The notes beneath the pieces were generated by a model. The model searched no databases and had not been told where the DNA came from. It saw only the letters and a program-made list of their open reading frames with translations. From Psychrobacter sp. JCM 18900 (lineage in GTDB: Bacteria; Pseudomonadota; Gammaproteobacteria; Pseudomonadales; Moraxellaceae): a stretch of 64,000 bases of DNA. A program made the translations under genes and the position numbers. The stretch lies in contig NZ_CAJHBL010000001.1 of NCBI RefSeq assembly GCF_904846625.1, forward strand, positions 372,001 through 436,000, written 5' to 3'. How positions within the stretch are numbered: the first letter of the stretch is position 1; each line of letters starts with the position of its first letter. This document shows, one piece after another, positions 47,340 to 64,000 of this stretch.

Positions 47340-48389
47340 ATGACTATCGCTTCTACTCTACGCTTAAGCCTATATGGCGTTGCTCTTAGTGCCATTAGCA
47401 CACTTGGACTAATCGGCTGCTCAAACTCCTCTACCGAGGCCGCAGCGACTGCTGAAAATAGCACGGCTACAGACAAACCTGCCAAATCAATTGCCATTAC
47501 TCAAATCGTTGAGCATCCATCATTAGATGATATGCGCCGCGGTATTATTGATGAATTGGCTGATAACGGCTATGTCGAAGGTCAAAACCTAACTGTTAAT
47601 TTTCAAAGTGCACAAGGGAATACAGCGACCGCAGGACAGATTGCCAAGCAATTTGCAGGAGACAATCCAGATGCGATCGTAGCAATCTCAACGCCTTCTG
47701 CGCAGTCAGTGGTAGCCGCGACCACCACTATCCCTATTATCTACACCGCTGTATCAGATCCGCTAGGTGCCAAGCTTATCACAGCAGATGGCAAGCCCTT
47801 TCAAAGCAATTTGACTGGACTATCAAGCCAGCTGCCATTAGAGCCGCAATTGGATTTGTTACAGCAAATAAAACCCGACTTGAAGACCATTGGTTATGTC
47901 TATAGCCCAGGCGAAGCAAACTCAGTATCATTGCGTGAGAACCTAAAACAAGCTCTGCCAGCACGAGGTCTGTCACTATTAGACATTCCTGCCAATCGTC
48001 CAACGGATATCGGTATGGCGACGCGCAGCTTGCAAGGACGTGCAGATATTATTTATACCTCATTTGACAACAATGTTGCCTCTGCCTTTGAAGCCATGAC
48101 TCAAGCAGCAAATGAGCTCAAGTTACCGATTATCGCGTCTGATGAATTCAGTGTAAAACGCGGCGCGACTGCTGCGCTTGGTGTTAATGACTATGACTTT
48201 GGTCGTACCACTGGCAAGATGGTATATCGCGTGTTAAATGGCGAAGCGGTTAACACCATCAAACCTGAAGTCATGAATGATCTGACCCTATATGTCAGTC
48301 CTAAGCACGCCAAAACACAAGGTGTCAGCTTGCCAGCAGAGTTACTAAAAAACGCCATCAATGTTGATATTGATGCCGAAACCAAATAA
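47340..48389 (+). CDS. TrpX-like ABC transporter substrate-binding lipoprotein (copy 1)
   Basis: A 349-residue binding protein of the ABC_sub_bind family. Lipobox-like LGLIGC places the lipid-bearing cysteine near residue 29. The domain begins SIAITQIVEHPSLDDMRRGIIDEL, then NLTVNFQSAQGNTATAGQIAKQF, which is the family hallmark. The ligand may be an aromatic amino acid, by analogy with streptococcal TrpXYZ; that is not shown. The next gene is a close paralogue. A permease and ATPase follow. Confidence 0.85.
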   Translation: MTIASTLRLSLYGVALSAISTLGLIGCSNSSTEAAATAENSTATDKPAKSIAITQIVEHPSLDDMRRGIIDELADNGYVEGQNLTVNFQSAQGNTATAGQIAKQFAGDNPDAIVAISTPSAQSVVAATTTIPIIYTAVSDPLGAKLITADGKPFQSNLTGLSSQLPLEPQLDLLQQIKPDLKTIGYVYSPGEANSVSLRENLKQALPARGLSLLDIPANRPTDIGMATRSLQGRADIIYTSFDNNVASAFEAMTQAANELKLPIIASDEFSVKRGATAALGVNDYDFGRTTGKMVYRVLNGEAVNTIKPEVMNDLTLYVSPKHAKTQGVSLPAELLKNAINVDIDAETK

Positions 48390-48466
48390 AAAGTAGTAAG
48401 CTATCTATTAGCTCGTCAATTATTTATATAGTGTATGGACACACTATTATTTTAGGAGTAAGACCC

Positions 48467-49507
48467 ATGTTGTCTCAAAATCGTTTTGGTCGTTTTAATT
48501 TCGGTAAGGCTTTATTATTAGGCGGTGTATGTACGGCTATCTTGACTGGTTGTAACCAATCAGCGCAAGATGATGGCTCCACTGATGCTGCCGCTGGTGG
48601 TGATGCAGCGACGGCTATGAAGACCGTTGCTATTACCGCTATCGTCGAACATCCAGCACTTGATGATGTACGTAAAGGTGTCATCGACGAGCTAAACGAA
48701 GCAGGATTTAAAGACGGTGAAAACCTAAAGGTTAACTTCCAAAGCGCGCAAGGAAACACTGCTACTGCTGGTCAGATTGCCAAGCAATTTGTCGCTGATG
48801 CACCAGACGTTATCGTCGCTATCGCAACACCGTCTGCGCAGTCTGTTGCCGCTTCTACTAGCAGCATTCCATTGGTATTCTCAGCAGTTACTGACCCAGT
48901 AGCCGCAAAACTGGTACCTAAGCTAGATGGCTCTGGCACCAACGTCACAGGCGCATCAGATGCCCTACCATATGAGCCACAGATTGATTTGATGCGTCAA
49001 ATCATTCCATCATTAAAGAACGTCGGTTACGTCTATAGCCCAGGTGAAGTCAACTCAACGATTATCTTAAAAAATCTAAAAGAGAAGCTAACGCCGCTCG
49101 GTATCAATGTACTTGAAGCACCTGCACAGCGTAGTAACGACATCGCAATGGCAGCCCGTAGTCTCGAAGGTAAGGTCGATATGATCTACACTTCAACTGA
49201 CAACAACGTAGTATCAGCGTACGAGTCACTTTATCAAATCGCTAAACAAAGTAAGATTCCTCTTATTGCCTCAGACACTAGCTCAGTTGAGCGCGGTGCT
49301 GTTGCTGCCTTAGGCGTGAACTACTATGAGCTTGGCCGCGAAACTGGTAAAATTGTCGTACGTATCTTAAACGGTGAAAAAGCAGGTGCTATCCCTGTTT
49401 ACACTCCACAAGCGCTTGATCTATATGTCAGTCCAAAACACGCTAAAGAAGAAGGCATTACGTTGCCACAAGCGGTTATCGATAAAGCTAAAGAAGTGGT
49501 AGAATAA
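48467..49507 (+). CDS. TrpX-like ABC transporter substrate-binding lipoprotein (copy 2)
   Basis: A 346-residue paralogue of copy 1 sharing VKVNFQSAQ-type and GNTATAGQIAKQF segments and the overall fold; the lipobox is AILTGC (cysteine near residue 29). Start ATG 48467 is supported by TTTTAGGAGTAAGACCC. It lies 77 bases after copy 1. The C-terminus of both has LYVSPKHAK. The ligand-contact loops differ between copies, so specificities may differ. Confidence 0.86.
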   Translation: MLSQNRFGRFNFGKALLLGGVCTAILTGCNQSAQDDGSTDAAAGGDAATAMKTVAITAIVEHPALDDVRKGVIDELNEAGFKDGENLKVNFQSAQGNTATAGQIAKQFVADAPDVIVAIATPSAQSVAASTSSIPLVFSAVTDPVAAKLVPKLDGSGTNVTGASDALPYEPQIDLMRQIIPSLKNVGYVYSPGEVNSTIILKNLKEKLTPLGINVLEAPAQRSNDIAMAARSLEGKVDMIYTSTDNNVVSAYESLYQIAKQSKIPLIASDTSSVERGAVAALGVNYYELGRETGKIVVRILNGEKAGAIPVYTPQALDLYVSPKHAKEEGITLPQAVIDKAKEVVE

Positions 49508-58452: not shown

Positions 58453-58539
58453 GCCCGGGTGGTGAAATTGGTAGACACAAGGGATTTAAAATCCCTCGCT
58501 AGCAATAGCGTGCCGGTTCAAGTCCGGCTCCGGGTACCA
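58453..58539 (+). tRNA. tRNA-Leu (anticodon TAA), island insertion site
   Basis: An 87-base class II tRNA: acceptor GCCCGGG/TCCGGGT, discriminator A, encoded CCA, anticodon loop TTTAAAA (anticodon TAA) and a long variable arm. An integrase gene follows 165 bases later, so the 3' end of this tRNA is the likely attachment core. Confidence 0.95.
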
Positions 58540-58572
58540 TTACATAGTCCTATACTATCTTATAGAACAGCT

Positions 58573-58600
58573 AAAGCCCCTGATATCAGGGGCTTTGTTG
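58573..58600 (+). terminator. Terminator of tRNA-Leu(UAA)
   Basis: A perfect palindrome (aaagcccctga / tcaggggcttt) with short T-rich tail. Confidence 0.8.
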
Positions 58601-58650
58601 TATCTGGCGTTCTATACTGTCCTATGAATCTATCCTAATCCATGCACTTT

Positions 58651-58703: not shown

Positions 58704-60068
58704 ATGGAAAGAAAAGCGATTAGTTCAGACCGAAGCATTAGCAGTCATAAACCTGAAGATAAGAAGTACTTCGTTGCTGTCAAAAATCATCCCAAACTCT
58801 TCTTAATGGTGCGTCCTACTGAAACCAAATCATGGATGTATCGCTACTACCCACCTTCAAACCCCAAACAAAGTATTATCTCCATCGGTATATATCCGAG
58901 TATCTCGTATGCTCGTGCCTGTGAAGTTTGGCGTGAGTATGAAGATCTGTTAAGCAAAGGTATTGACCCAAAACTCCATCGTGAAGAAATAAAGAAAAGC
59001 ATTATTAGTAAAACTAAAAACTCTTTTAATCATTTTGCATGGGAGTACTTTGACGGTCTAGATCAAACTCAGAAGAGCAATACCCTCATTCGTAAGAAAG
59101 GTCGTCTTGATCTTATATGCAAATATATTGGTGACGAGCCAATCAGCGAGATCACCTCTCCTAAAATGCTTGAAGTCCTGTTAGACATTCAAGCTAACTC
59201 ATTAAATAAAGCTGGCAAACCCACAGATAAGGCTGAACGCTGTGCAGGTATCGCCAGCGACGTATTTGTCTATGCTGGTGCTCGCGGCTTCTGTAGTAGC
59301 AATCCAGCTGCCTTGATCAAAAGCCAATTGGCTAAATCGAGCTATGGTCATCGTCCTGCGATCACTAAGCCTAAAGAATTAGCTAAGCTGCTACGTGATA
59401 TCGAGACTATAGAAGGTGATCCAAACACTATCAATTCCCTTAGGCTATTAGCATTACTCTTTGTGCGTAATGGTGATCTACGCCGTATGCGCTGGGCTGA
59501 CTTAGATCTGGAAGCTGGTAGGTGGCGGTTAAAGCCTTTAAAAGGCCAAGGCAAGGTAAATATGGTCAAGGACATGGTCGTGCCCCTACCTCGTCAAGCA
59601 GTAGCTATTTTGCGTGAGCAGCAGCAAATCAATGGTCATACTAAATTTGTCTTCTACAGTGAGACAGCAAAAAAGCATCAGATCATCTCTGATGCGACAG
59701 CGAATAAGCGTTTAAAAGATTTGGGCTACAAAGACATTCATTGTGCTCACGGCTTTAGAGCTACAGCGAAAACCATCTTACAAGAGCAATTAAAGTATCC
59801 TCTCGTGCTTGTTGAGATGGCTTTGGGTCATACAACCAAAGATCCTAATGGCACGGCATATGGTCGATTCGAATACATTGACGATCGTAGTGATATGATG
59901 CAGAAGTGGGCTGATTATTTAGATGCTTTGCGAGAAGGTAGAGATACGGCAAAGTTTAGAGCGGATGCGCAAACCAAAGCTGACTCTACCGCGCAGCTAC
60001 AAGCATTAATTGATCAGCTTGGTGAGGACAAAGTGCTTGGATTACTTAGCCGTAAAGTCTCCGGCTAA
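58704..60068 (+). CDS. int: P4-type tyrosine recombinase (island integrase)
   Basis: A 454-residue integrase. An N-terminal DUF4102-like domain (VAVKNHPKLFLMVRPTETKSWMYRY) is followed by a helical core-binding region. The catalytic domain has Arg in FVRNGDLRRMRW near 251, His and Arg in HGFRATAKT near 348, His in LVEMALGHT near 374, and the nucleophilic Tyr within YGRFEYIDDRSDMMQKWADYL near 388-394. P4-like integrases insert into tRNA 3' ends; tRNA-Leu(UAA) lies directly upstream. GAGACCTAGGAT precedes the ATG. Confidence 0.93.
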   Translation: MERKAISSDRSISSHKPEDKKYFVAVKNHPKLFLMVRPTETKSWMYRYYPPSNPKQSIISIGIYPSISYARACEVWREYEDLLSKGIDPKLHREEIKKSIISKTKNSFNHFAWEYFDGLDQTQKSNTLIRKKGRLDLICKYIGDEPISEITSPKMLEVLLDIQANSLNKAGKPTDKAERCAGIASDVFVYAGARGFCSSNPAALIKSQLAKSSYGHRPAITKPKELAKLLRDIETIEGDPNTINSLRLLALLFVRNGDLRRMRWADLDLEAGRWRLKPLKGQGKVNMVKDMVVPLPRQAVAILREQQQINGHTKFVFYSETAKKHQIISDATANKRLKDLGYKDIHCAHGFRATAKTILQEQLKYPLVLVEMALGHTTKDPNGTAYGRFEYIDDRSDMMQKWADYLDALREGRDTAKFRADAQTKADSTAQLQALIDQLGEDKVLGLLSRKVSG

Positions 60069-60151
60069 AATTTAAAAAAATATTGAGCAATATAATATTT
60101 ACTAAAAACTGATTGTAAGCTAATAGCCTTACATTAAGAAAGGTGTGAGTC

Positions 60152-61189
60152 CTATCTCATTTTATCAGACGTTTGATCGACATAGTAAATCGCTTGCGCT
60201 AGTCTATCAATCGCTTTGGCCTCTTCATTACTATAATGATCTTTATTGATCATACTCGACAAACCCCTTCGCATTCTTGTTATATATCCTTTCGGATACA
60301 TAAGCTTGCAAGTATCTTCATAAGATTCTTCTATGTATCTATAAAGGTTCTTAATGTGGGCTATTTCAGACTCTATGCATCGATTACTGTTTCTAAGCTG
60401 CACATCATCATAGTTTAATTTTTTTGTTTCTGACTTGAACTTCTGAATATTCTTCTCACGGCCGTTAACAGAGGAATAAAGCAAGGCTGCAACTGGAATA
60501 AAAAATACAACGCCTAATGCAACTATACCGCCATTAATACCATCCCCACCTGATACTAAAGAGCCACCGCCAAACCATGCCAAAGTAGCATTAGTTTCTG
60601 CAGCACCTGACAAAGATTGGATAGAGGTTCCAGTGGAAGCATTTCCAAACATTGATACCAAGCCTAATAATGCCATAACTAAAATAGCGCCAATCAATGC
60701 ACCAAACATCACTGCTACAATTGGCTTTATATAAAACTTTGATATACGTTTTAAAGGGTATAACTCCTCTGGTACAAAGCTATACAGGTTAAGCTTTTGC
60801 TCTAGTTCATATTTATCGTAAGGCTGTTTACACAAGCTTTTACTTTTTTCTATCAGTTTAAAGTTATGGATAGTAGTATTTTCTAGCTTCTTTAATAAAG
60901 CATTAGTTTGGTTACGAACGTCAATATGTTGGTTAAACGCATCGCTATATTTTGCAAAGCTACTTTCGTATTCCTGGTTACTTATACTCATAGATGCTTG
61001 ATCATCAATAGTATTATCAATTGGTAATACTTTGATTTTACTACGAACTTTTAGTTTTGTAAGTTTGAAACGCCTGTCGCTTTTTATTTTTCTTATAACA
61101 GCAAATAATATTACTCCTAGTACCACGACCAATACCACCCAACCGAGCGTAGTTACTTCAGATGTCATTGCTATATCAGTCGTGTCCAC
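60152..61189 (-). CDS. Unknown 345-residue membrane protein at the BREX locus
   Basis: I do not recognise it. Predicted helix 1 at about residues 15-33, a basic and then coiled-coil-like cytoplasmic stretch (residues 35-150), helix 2 at about 155-182, a Gly/Ala/Ser/Thr-rich segment (183-222, including SLSGAAETNATLAWFGGGS), helix 3 at about 221-240, and a C-terminal charged helical region (242-345). GTG start at 61189 behind AGAGGAGTT. It begins 44 bases after the end of pglZ in the same direction, so it is probably cotranscribed with it. In type-1 BREX the gene here is normally brxL (Lon-like protease), which this protein does not resemble in any motif. The Gly-rich segment between helices recalls membrane-inserting hairpins, an inference. 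Confidence 0.8.
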   Translation of the reverse strand: MDTTDIAMTSEVTTLGWVVLVVVLGVILFAVIRKIKSDRRFKLTKLKVRSKIKVLPIDNTIDDQASMSISNQEYESSFAKYSDAFNQHIDVRNQTNALLKKLENTTIHNFKLIEKSKSLCKQPYDKYELEQKLNLYSFVPEELYPLKRISKFYIKPIVAVMFGALIGAILVMALLGLVSMFGNASTGTSIQSLSGAAETNATLAWFGGGSLVSGGDGINGGIVALGVVFFIPVAALLYSSVNGREKNIQKFKSETKKLNYDDVQLRNSNRCIESEIAHIKNLYRYIEESYEDTCKLMYPKGYITRMRRGLSSMINKDHYSNEEAKAIDRLAQAIYYVDQTSDKMR

Positions 61190-61233
61190 TGCGGTATAAC
61201 TCCTCTTACAGATACTCTATGCATCAAAACAGT

Positions 61234-63732
61234 TTAAAAATCAAAATCACTAGTAAATGAACGTCTTACTGTATATTTAAGCGATTTGTATTCTTTATAA
61301 TGAGAAGTTCCGCCTACTTTTTCTTCTAGCTTTAAAACAACCTCTTGACCGTTAAGCTCATCGATTCTACGCGTGAAAATCAAGTTTACCTGCTGCTCAC
61401 GCGCGCGCGGGTTTTCTGAGCGTAAATCGAATGTCATCTCATAGCTATCTGAGATCAACTCACCTGATTCAGTGTAGACACCTACTCTCAGTACGCGAGG
61501 CTGATTTTTTTCAGTGACAGGGGTACTTTGGTATAAGCTAACAGTAAGCTCCTCTGTAGTAATTAAAGAGTTCGATCCGCGTAAAATATCCACTTCAACT
61601 GCTGTAGTATCACTTTGCCTTTTTTTATTGATGCTAACGACGGGCACGACAACTTCCTGCAATGATGCTCCGCCATGTACAAAGCGGCTTCCCGAGCCAC
61701 TAAGTCTTAAGCGATTAATCGACTTAGGTATCTGTACTTCAACATCACCAATTAAACCGAGCGCTTCAGAGCTAAACTTATGCAAGCCTGGTGAATCAAC
61801 CAATCCCTTACCCAGTATAAATCGACGATCTTTGTATAATACTTCTTTGCCTCTTACTTCAGCACCTGAAAAATCGCTCTGATCTATCTCACGGTTTTGG
61901 TAAATAAAACCGTGATCAGCCGTGATTAAAATATTATTAGCATTAGCTGCTGCTAGCTTCTTAATGATTTTCATTAAATCGCTAAGCGTCTTTTCTGCCG
62001 CTTCAAACGCTTGCCCTTCAGAGAGCATTTTATCGCCAGTATGATCAATCCGATTATGATAAATATAAATGATGTCATTAGCTTTTAATAGCTCTCGACT
62101 ACCATCTCTATTAAGTTGCATAAAATCATCGGCAGTGATCGCATCTCCTCGATCTTGCAACGCAGCTTTAAGTATCTTACTTCTATTGGACGTTCCTTGA
62201 GAGCTTTGTCCATTCACAAGCACTGTGCCTGACGTGTTGTCTGCTATAGATAATGTCTCGTTCGGTAGGAGCGCTGCCATACCAAGCTGAGTATAGCTAG
62301 GCAACATAGACAGCATAGGCGCTATATCAGCACTGTAGCGATCTTCTTGACGTATTAAGCTGACCAGTTCATCCGCTATCTCATAGCGCATGGCATCGGA
62401 GATAATAACGTATATTTTGTTGTTGTTATCTAGAAACGGTTTCACCCAATGCTTAAAGAACCTATCCTGCCTAAGAATTGGCGCAGCATTCCATTGGCTT
62501 TCAGATTCTACGAACTCCTGAAAGCGATTACCTAATCTGAGTAAATAGTTATTAGAGTATATATTCTCTATTTTATCGTTGAGATGGTTGAGGAGTGATA
62601 CTTCTCCAGACTCAAGTTTATGGTAGATAAACTTACGATAAAGCTGATCAAGCTTGTACCAAGACTGGGTATAACGCTCTACCCCTTGTACAAAGCTATC
62701 CATATCGATTTTGACTTGGTTAAAATTAGCTATAAACTGCGCTGCATTATCAAGGGCTTGATAGGTATGCTCAAACTCAGCGTACCAGTGACTCTGACGA
62801 CGCTGGCGAATCCAAATAGCCATTTGTTCAGCGGTAAAGTCACTTTGTAAGACTGCATTAGCTAGCGCGCTAATTATCTTGTTATCAATTAAGCGAAAGT
62901 AGTCTATATCGATGAGCTGTTTAAAATCTCTACTACTGAGATCGTCTCTAATATCAAGATCATCAGAAAATTTATCGGATAACATCTCAAAGCTGTCTTG
63001 ATATTGTCTACTGTCTTTCCAACGTTTGAGAAATACCAAAGCATCATTGGACAGCTTTACCTGACCATCCGTTGCCATTGCATAGCTAGATTTAAAGAGC
63101 TCAATGGCAAAATCATGAATACTAGGCTCATCAGATTTGTAGCCATAGTAGCGATTCATTTGCTCCCAGAAAAAGCCATCAAGAGCAGATCGACTAATCA
63201 GACTCATCTTTTCATCTTTATCATTGGCCAAGTCCTGCAACAGACTCTCAACGACTGTGTCCATTTTAGGCTCGCTCTTAGCACAAACAGCCAGCATCTT
63301 TAGCTGAACCATACCTGAGCTATCACTGGGCTCTATAAGCTTATTTAGAGCCTCTTTACGGCTTTTAGCGCGAAAGAACTCTGCATGATCTTTTAAGACC
63401 TCTGCAAACTCAATACCTAATGATAGCTCCGAGAGCCAGATAGCAACTTGGTCAGTACGGAATTCCCCGTGAGCCAGCTGTACATCCAATAGCCAATTAT
63501 CTAATAGCGCAGGCTGAGCACCTGCACGATAAAGCAGAAATTTTTGATTAGGCTGCTCACGTATTATTTTATATTTAACACTGAACTCATTGTTATCTAG
63601 GACGATTTTTTCAATATCTTCTAGTACTAGACTGTCAAAGTCATCACGCAGCTCATGCTTGGCATCGTACCAAAAAACAATACGATGTTTTTTAAAGAGC
63701 TGCTGTAATGCGTTGATGATGCGATCATTCAT
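61234..63732 (-). CDS. pglZ: BREX phosphatase-domain protein PglZ
   Basis: An 832-residue protein of the BREX phage-defence system. The N-terminus (FKKHRIVFWYDAKHELRDDF, then DNWLLDVQLAHGEFRTDQVAIW) is characteristic of type-1 PglZ. The alkaline phosphatase-like PglZ domain begins near residue 440 with VIISDAMRYEIADEL (metal-binding Asp), continues with YIYHNRIDHTGD and has ILITADHGFIYQN near 605. The C-terminal domain is beta-rich. PglZ is needed for BREX methylation and defence; its catalytic role is uncertain. Its ATG overlaps the pglX stop by one base (TAATG), so translation is coupled. Confidence 0.92.
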   Translation of the reverse strand: MNDRIINALQQLFKKHRIVFWYDAKHELRDDFDSLVLEDIEKIVLDNNEFSVKYKIIREQPNQKFLLYRAGAQPALLDNWLLDVQLAHGEFRTDQVAIWLSELSLGIEFAEVLKDHAEFFRAKSRKEALNKLIEPSDSSGMVQLKMLAVCAKSEPKMDTVVESLLQDLANDKDEKMSLISRSALDGFFWEQMNRYYGYKSDEPSIHDFAIELFKSSYAMATDGQVKLSNDALVFLKRWKDSRQYQDSFEMLSDKFSDDLDIRDDLSSRDFKQLIDIDYFRLIDNKIISALANAVLQSDFTAEQMAIWIRQRRQSHWYAEFEHTYQALDNAAQFIANFNQVKIDMDSFVQGVERYTQSWYKLDQLYRKFIYHKLESGEVSLLNHLNDKIENIYSNNYLLRLGNRFQEFVESESQWNAAPILRQDRFFKHWVKPFLDNNNKIYVIISDAMRYEIADELVSLIRQEDRYSADIAPMLSMLPSYTQLGMAALLPNETLSIADNTSGTVLVNGQSSQGTSNRSKILKAALQDRGDAITADDFMQLNRDGSRELLKANDIIYIYHNRIDHTGDKMLSEGQAFEAAEKTLSDLMKIIKKLAAANANNILITADHGFIYQNREIDQSDFSGAEVRGKEVLYKDRRFILGKGLVDSPGLHKFSSEALGLIGDVEVQIPKSINRLRLSGSGSRFVHGGASLQEVVVPVVSINKKRQSDTTAVEVDILRGSNSLITTEELTVSLYQSTPVTEKNQPRVLRVGVYTESGELISDSYEMTFDLRSENPRAREQQVNLIFTRRIDELNGQEVVLKLEEKVGGTSHYKEYKSLKYTVRRSFTSDFDF

Positions 63733-64000
63733 TAGCTAAGCCCCGTCACTTTCTTTAATGCCTTACCAAATTTAGGATAGTTTACTTTTACACCATCATC
63801 TAGGTCTATCTCTATTTGTTTAGTGGCTAATGGATACAGTACCTCACGCTCATAATCTTCCATCTCTGTGATCATTTTGTTAGTGATATCTAGCTTCTTT
63901 TGTGCTTTTGTTTTTTCACTTTGGCTTTGACTGGCACTAATATTGATCGCATTAAGCTGATCTTTATAAGCATTAAGCTTAGTACGGAACTCACGTAGAT
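63732..64000 (-). CDS. pglX: BREX adenine-specific methyltransferase PglX, C-terminal end only
   Basis: The last 88 codons on the reverse strand, entering from beyond 64000. It starts in a helical, Lys/Gln-rich coiled coil, and ends with the conserved tail YEREVLYPLATKQIEIDLDDG and NYPKFGKALKKVTGLS. This tail and its coupling to pglZ match PglX of type-1 BREX. PglX methylates an asymmetric adenine site in host DNA; the catalytic domain is out of view. Confidence 0.8.
   Translation of the reverse strand, partial: LREFRTKLNAYKDQLNAINISASQSQSEKTKAQKKLDITNKMITEMEDYEREVLYPLATKQIEIDLDDGVKVNYPKFGKALKKVTGLS

Follow-up and report, generated by a model that had tools for sequence, protein, structure and literature searches.

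Introduction

The locus reported here is best compared with type 1 BREX, in which a PglZ of type A is encoded after brxA, brxB, brxC and pglX and is usually followed by brxL. According to the passages on it in a recent survey, some BREX systems need BrxL and others do not, that of Salmonella being among the latter (PMC12839542). The same survey, in the parts concerned, describes nuclease accessory effectors of BREX; searched by term, its main text gave no match for Bunzi, TerB, Zorya or integrase and contained "membrane" in a reference title alone. The GmrSD-type enzyme BrxU, which cuts modified DNA and has its gene between brxC and pglX, was experimentally shown to be a second defence layer beside BREX, as stated in the sections that deal with it (PMC8565348). 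Reviews count Bunzi, for which TerB has been reported, among the defence systems (PMC10952713, PMC12926258). The PDC entries of PADLOC are phage defence candidates obtained by guilt-by-embedding, as stated in two papers (PMC10855318, PMC11811056), and the ClyA-like alpha-pore-forming toxins are defined, in the text that introduces them, by a five-helix bundle fold (PMC6162564).

The window, a stretch of 64,000 nucleotides from Psychrobacter sp. JCM 18900, shares with type 1 BREX the order of the five core genes and the type A PglZ. In the place of brxL it has an unrelated membrane protein, as the original prediction had proposed, and no true brxL was found in the genome. This membrane protein gene is probably (probability about 0.6) an exchangeable accessory anti-phage gene that comes last in a BREX operon carried by a tRNA-Leu island, with a product acting on its own at the membrane. 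What is new is the occurrence of a PDC-M09A-type gene in a BREX-island exchange slot without its partner gene; the family itself is already listed as a candidate. Genomes and loci are denoted below by G and L numbers, and window coordinates equal those of locus L002 plus 52999.

The BREX Operon and its tRNA-Leu Island

The window ends inside the operon. The gene pglZ (61234..63732, minus strand) encodes a BREX-1 PglZ of type A (TIGR02687, E 3.1e-292, above cut-off; PADLOC PglZ), and the 3' end of pglX (63732..64000, minus strand; L002:10733-14209; NF033452) runs past the window edge, where the operon goes on with pglX, brxC, brxB and brxA. The type 1 gene set of brxA, brxB, brxC, pglX and pglZ is present, with TIGR02687, NF033452 and NF033441 matched above cut-off and with PADLOC matches for BrxB and for BrxA (the query being 164 of its 200 residues).

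A tyrosine integrase gene of the island (58704..60068, plus strand; PF00589, PF13356, PF22022) is convergent with the membrane gene, and a tRNA-Leu gene (TAA; 58453..58539, plus strand; ARAGORN) serves as the integration site. An att copy, in the form of an 84-bp perfect direct repeat (58523..58606, plus strand), lies at the 3' end of this tRNA gene; since the repeat recurs outside the window at contig positions 454921-455004, BREX sits in an integrated island of ~24.5 kb. The genome as a whole gave only two matches to the BrxL profile, both partial and in its Lon-like C-terminal part (515-674 and 581-647 of 680), and the 345-aa membrane protein has no BrxL family match up to E 1.

The Membrane Gene and its Product

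The membrane gene (60152..61189, minus strand) is an intact ORF of 345 codons with a GTG start and an AGGAG motif 10 bases upstream. It follows the pglZ stop (61234) in the same direction after a gap of 44 bases and is the last gene of the brxA-brxB-brxC-pglX-pglZ operon. In this gap no minus-strand promoter was listed by a promoter scan, and site counts in the promoter and terminator scans were no higher than in shuffles.

The three-helix protein predicted at this position was borne out by ORF and hydrophobicity analysis, which placed hydrophobic segments at residues ~14-36, ~156-180 and ~217-238. The Gly/Ser/Ala-rich segment foreseen between helices 2 and 3 is also there: among the 36 residues that separate them 23 are Gly, Ser, Ala or Thr and none is Lys or Arg, and of the 1543 windows taken from the other ORFs of L002 and L003 a single one attains 23/36. 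This stretch, ASTGTSIQSLSGAAETNATLAWFGGGSLVSGG (residues 181-216; codons at 60542..60649, minus strand), is the conserved Gly/Ala/Ser-rich core as delimited by family alignments and composition. AlphaFold models confident long helices for the coiled coils, at ~57-121 and ~241-297, and a last confident helix at residues 321-344 (60158..60229, minus strand); the hairpin of helices 2 and 3 is modelled with low confidence. Successive non-membrane parts of the protein contain 0, 22, 0 and 20 Lys plus Arg, from which the positive-inside rule predicts an N terminus on the outside and a cytoplasmic position of both charged coiled-coil parts. No enzymatic domain was recognised by any library searched.

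A gene encoding a 98.5% identical protein occupies the same place in G806, of the same genus, with a pN/pS of 0.23 (13 substitutions); against the 3' part of the copy in G779 the value is 0.15 (36 substitutions). Because of the G806 counterpart at the same place, the low pN/pS and the occurrence of the core motif in many phyla, the membrane gene is regarded as more than a chance ORF.

Relationship to the PDC-M09A Family

Pfam and NCBIfam gave nothing above cut-off for the protein, and PADLOC assigned it to PDC-M09A through two profiles, PDLC04407 (E 4.8e-24, residues 68-296, profile positions 15-246 of 282) and PDLC04406 (E 5.8e-21). Its description as an undescribed component is therefore to be qualified, since PADLOC lists PDC-M09A as a candidate; by name, PDC-M09 was absent from the literature searched, which did not extend to preprints. 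The window protein shares with PDC-M09 the match over residues 68-296 and the same conserved core, and differs from it in several respects: it is 15-33% identical to aligned relatives, its gene is the last of a BREX operon without PDC-M09B, and at its N terminus it has a hydrophobic helix, which is absent from the M09B-linked proteins of L027, L028, L030 and L033. No PDC-M09B-like ORF was found by blastp in L002 or L003, where the immediate neighbours are pglZ and the integrase gene, and the whole genome gave no PDC-M09B match; control genomes gave none either, though the model matches L024 and L028.

The family was detected in 16 of 390 genomes of an order sample and in 7 of 369 genomes of a class sample (under a stricter limit and with a six-row alignment), its own genome included in both. 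A scan of genome contigs yielded at least 241 relatives among at least 597 pattern matches, distributed over many phyla, of which the best 80 were kept. Over 54 alignment rows the residues A184, S185, T186, G187, I190, L193, G195, A201, A204, G207, G208, G217 and G221 are invariant. In a tree the window protein groups with relatives from BREX and Zorya loci (SH-aLRT 94), a grouping that joins long branches and is of unsure placement. Weak matches to LeoBC were obtained for the relatives at L041 (E 5.5e-7), L023 (E 8e-4) and L031 (E 4e-4). With the window protein as sole query no viral contig was matched, and two family alignments found the same 2 contigs; plasmid records numbered 3 for the window protein, 2 for the L041 protein and 2 for that of L038, while the L023 protein matched no plasmid; phages gave no match. 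The conserved core also occurs in a 524-aa protein at L034:3096-4670, and one member of alignment A1, by sequence most likely this same protein, matches DUF726 (PF05277, E 4.4e-39).

What the protein has in common with ClyA-like pore formers is its layout alone, long helices and a hydrophobic hairpin head, with no significant sequence or fold match. Foldseek gave no match at E 0.001 or better (E 0.03 or worse for the window model); its top ranks were AhlB, SmhB and ClyA for this model and axonemal coiled-coil proteins for the better L044 model. VIA-align scored the window model against ClyA (2wcd) at Z 7.0 with an rmsd of 4.2 over 150 residues and the L044 model at Z 6.6, both within the noise for helical proteins. 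A 16-row profile matched XaxA at E 8e-4, with viral fusion proteins scoring better, and with a deeper profile of 60 rows XaxA was no longer listed; homology to alpha-pore formers was not established by these searches. Homology to BnzA was rejected: hhalign gave a probability of 1%, and a blastp stretch over the Gly-rich hairpin (E 0.004) looks compositional.

Because of the Gly-rich motif, homology to the interferon-induced Ifi-6-16 proteins was considered. No match to the Ifi-6-16 Pfam family was seen at E 10 or better with four family proteins, in a search in which HMMER filters drop weak matches, nor among the 25 families listed, of 51, for alignment A1.

An Exchange Slot Between pglZ and the Integrase Gene

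Within a sample of 105 genomes of the genus, 15 PglZ loci besides that of the window were compared, taking as the slot whatever follows pglZ and precedes the next gene on the opposite strand. Aligned with the islands of G763, G833 and G758, the window island loses DNA homology at most ~10 bases from the pglZ stop and regains it within the final 26-61 bases of the integrase gene. The segment from the pglZ stop to the end of the integrase gene is an exchange slot, which spans 60008..61232 (unstranded) when its borders are set as in G763.

The islands closest to that of the window show how variable this slot is. It holds the membrane gene in the window and in G806 (PglZ 97.5% identical); in G779 (PglZ 97.4%) a 1.2-kb insertion that encodes an rve transposase interrupts the gene after ~residue 43. 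In G763 (PglZ 96.6%) the occupant is a GmrSD gene (PF03235 and PF07510), in G833 (PglZ 85.2%) it is the Bunzi pair BnzA-BnzB (PADLOC E 3e-208 and 2.5e-183), and in G758 (PglZ 82.1%) the slot is empty; these three forms were each seen once, all within one genus. BnzA of G833 also has a Gly-rich hydrophobic stretch. BrxL fills the slot in G791 (PglZ 58.6%), G216, G793, G769 and G803. The slot proteins of G811, G380, G837, G777 and G794 are all without a family match, some with signal-like N termini (one protein each from L225, L229 and L163 was scanned). At L228:9982-11544 and L229:6874-8493 the slot encodes lipoprotein-like and 146-aa proteins, those scanned having no family match. The BREX locus of G794 (L232) is decayed, with pglX, pglZ and a HEC-05-like gene in pieces. 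Near-identical BREX cores thus end in different genes, and the membrane gene is therefore exchangeable cargo and not a core part.

Integrase identities to that of the window are 99% (G806), 85% (G779), 92% (G763) and 87% (G758), and a tRNA-Leu matches that of the window at 82-87 of 87 bases in 6 of 7 islands compared, and at 67 of 87 in G833. PglX of G806, G779 and G763 (L220, L221, L222) is 74-76% identical to that of L002:10733-14209, against ~97-99.5% for PglZ and BrxC, as if methylation specificity were also exchanged between islands. At L224:2959-4625 and L031:8574-10240 a family gene, a CxxCxxCC gene and a gene for a 141-aa protein were observed together on the brxA side of a BREX operon, and at L031 an AbiLi/AbiLii-like pair adjoins this cluster. 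Across the 105 genomes the family occurs in 12, PglZ in 16 and both in 5 (p 0.018, with kinship ignored and the pair in G791 unlinked).

Relation to brxL

PglZ was detected at E 1e-20 or better in 28 of the 390 order-sample genomes, and among the 27 other than that of the window brxL lies 1-3 ORFs after pglZ in 25 (24 of the 26 loci L150-L175, plus G245); the exceptions are G380, which has no brxL after pglZ, and G021, where the contig ends. A family gene at the PglZ locus was found in G245 alone among these 27 genomes. There (L023) HEC-05, pglZ, brxL, NERD-UvrD and the family gene form one run, with the family gene last in a different BREX operon, so that the expected recurrence beside BREX genes was confirmed by G245 together with G806 and the broken copy of G779. 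In G346 the symporter and tRNA-Leu are as in the window and the integrase is 86% identical, with a different BREX that has brxL in the slot position; its family gene, beside an AbiL-like pair, lies on the same contig as brxL at a distance of ~20 kb (L031, L176).

Family and PglZ occur together in 3 order-sample genomes against 1.15 expected, which is not significant (p 0.099), and are linked in 2 of those 3 (P 5e-4 for random placement, the clustering of defence genes being ignored). Taken together, the order-sample counts and the linked cases point to linkage, yet to no general anti-correlation with brxL. Such an anti-correlation, raised as a question in the original prediction, did not hold: G245 has both genes, brxL follows pglZ in 25 of 27 genomes, and several brxL-less loci of the genus have no family gene in the slot. 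Replacement of BrxL as a rule was rejected, since G245 and G346 keep both and those brxL-less loci have another slot content or none. A true brxL is absent from 9 of the 10 compared genus genomes that were searched whole, a set without G794, and present in the tenth, G791. As BrxL is not needed in every BREX system, going by the statements on Salmonella (PMC12839542), a BREX core without brxL may still be functional.

Genomic Settings of the Relatives

Neighbours were tallied within four ORFs of 87 relatives of 250-700 aa, with 14 proteins besides the family and the integrase as queries and PADLOC on chosen loci, a design in which other defence neighbours may be missed, one locus may count more than once and identical loci enter twice (L025/L044, L024/L105). 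A YkgJ-type CxxCxxCC protein was found beside 27 relatives, a 140-aa protein beside 17, an LRAT/PDC-M09B-like protein beside 15 and PDC-M09B beside 7, followed by TerB-like (6), hsdM (3), NERD-UvrD (2), brxL (1), pglZ (1) and HEC-05 (1); none of the 14 was present at 37 of the 87. The commonest setting is a cluster of TerB, LRAT-domain and CxxCxxCC genes, which may serve membrane stress. Whole or in part, this cluster with the family gene (L025:8460-11281, L044 and others) is widespread in several phyla.

A BREX gene lies within four ORFs of 1 of the 87 relatives, and slightly further away at L031 and L088; at the family loci of the class sample there was none among the matches listed. In Vibrio sp. 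AND4 (L041:1604-10603) a complete Zorya type I operon, ZorA-B-C-D, is followed by a family gene. Two Vibrio plasmids carry a relative 71% identical to this protein; among the plasmids counted as matching ZorD at E 1e-50 there is none from Vibrio. Most of the relatives examined are not beside BREX, and some follow BREX or Zorya operons.

Proposed Function and Alternatives

The strongest argument for an anti-phage role is that the genes replacing the membrane gene in its slot, GmrSD, Bunzi and BrxL, belong to recognised defence families, GmrSD and Bunzi having been seen once each. Relatives that end another BREX operon (L023, G245) and follow Zorya type I (L041) favour the same reading, as do the PDC-M09A match, the low pN/pS and the genus co-occurrence with PglZ (p 0.018, with the limits given above); against it stand the TerB/LRAT/CxxCxxCC cluster as commonest setting, the 37 of 87 relatives without queried neighbours, the presence of a BREX gene near only 1 of 87, the five genus genomes whose slot proteins lack a family match and the order-sample overlap (p 0.099). 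As a GmrSD enzyme in a BREX operon was shown to be a separate layer, in the sections on BrxU (PMC8565348), a separate layer is the default reading here, and the membrane protein would be co-expressed with BREX yet work alone. It resembles BrxU in being encoded by an accessory gene of the operon, and the GmrSD gene of G763 occupies this very slot; unlike BrxU it is a membrane protein with no recognised nuclease domain. Of the two options offered originally, the better fit is the second, that of an independent anti-phage gene in a shared operon.

The proposal that the membrane protein replaces BrxL as the effector arm, with PglX, PglZ and BrxC sensing unmodified DNA and the membrane protein exerting the block, is very unlikely. 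The occupied brxL place, the lack of a true brxL and the presence of BrxL in the same slot of G791 are in keeping with it, but G245 has brxL as well as the family, the two share a contig in G346, close relatives of this core in G763 and G833 have neither gene, and the slot of the brxL-less G758 is empty although its BREX is flanked on the opposite side by a family gene; G779, moreover, retains the core genes with the membrane gene broken, and BrxL is itself reported to be dispensable in Salmonella BREX. An anchor or regulator of the BREX complex at the membrane would account for the charged, probably cytoplasmic coiled coils and for the common direction with pglZ; with a 97% identical PglZ encoded in G763 without the membrane gene, and a relative beside the unrelated Zorya, such a role is highly improbable. 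A passenger or mobile-element fitness gene, concerned with membrane stress, entry exclusion or island stability rather than with phages, is unlikely: many relatives lie in TerB/LRAT/CxxCxxCC clusters or have no recognised neighbour, and the slot abuts the integrase gene and in five other genus genomes holds only proteins without a family match, but sister islands have GmrSD, Bunzi or BrxL there, and relatives follow Zorya and BREX operons. The broadest proposal would make the 3' end of BREX on tRNA-Leu islands an effector socket, in which BrxL, GmrSD, Bunzi and a membrane-permeabilising PDC-M09A are exchangeable effectors fired or licensed by the core; this is quite unlikely.

For the accessory anti-phage gene favoured here, the membrane anchor, the long cytoplasmic coiled coils and the strictly conserved hairpin suggest a membrane-acting effector whose trigger is a change in its coiled coils. 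The protein would be anchored in the inner membrane with its N terminus outside, its two charged coiled-coil regions in the cytoplasm and the Gly/Ala-rich hairpin of helices 2 and 3 within the membrane. Upon infection, or once BREX is overcome, the coiled coils might rearrange or oligomerise, and the hairpin could then perturb or permeabilise the membrane and so stop the infected cell. Membrane damage is the least certain part of this mechanism, conceivable at somewhat less than even odds.

The islands constitute a natural allelic series, in which the slot beside closely related BREX cores is empty or holds the membrane gene, a broken form of it, a type IV restriction enzyme gene, Bunzi or BrxL. 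On such a series the need of this BREX for BrxL can be tested directly, as can the question whether accessory genes act alone or through the core, and the candidate family PDC-M09A is seen in a slot that recognised defence systems fill in its stead. Apart from the island, a tandem pair of similar lipoprotein-like substrate-binding proteins, of 349 and 358 aa, is encoded at 47340-49507 of the window, ahead of an ABC permease and an ATPase, all named by eye.
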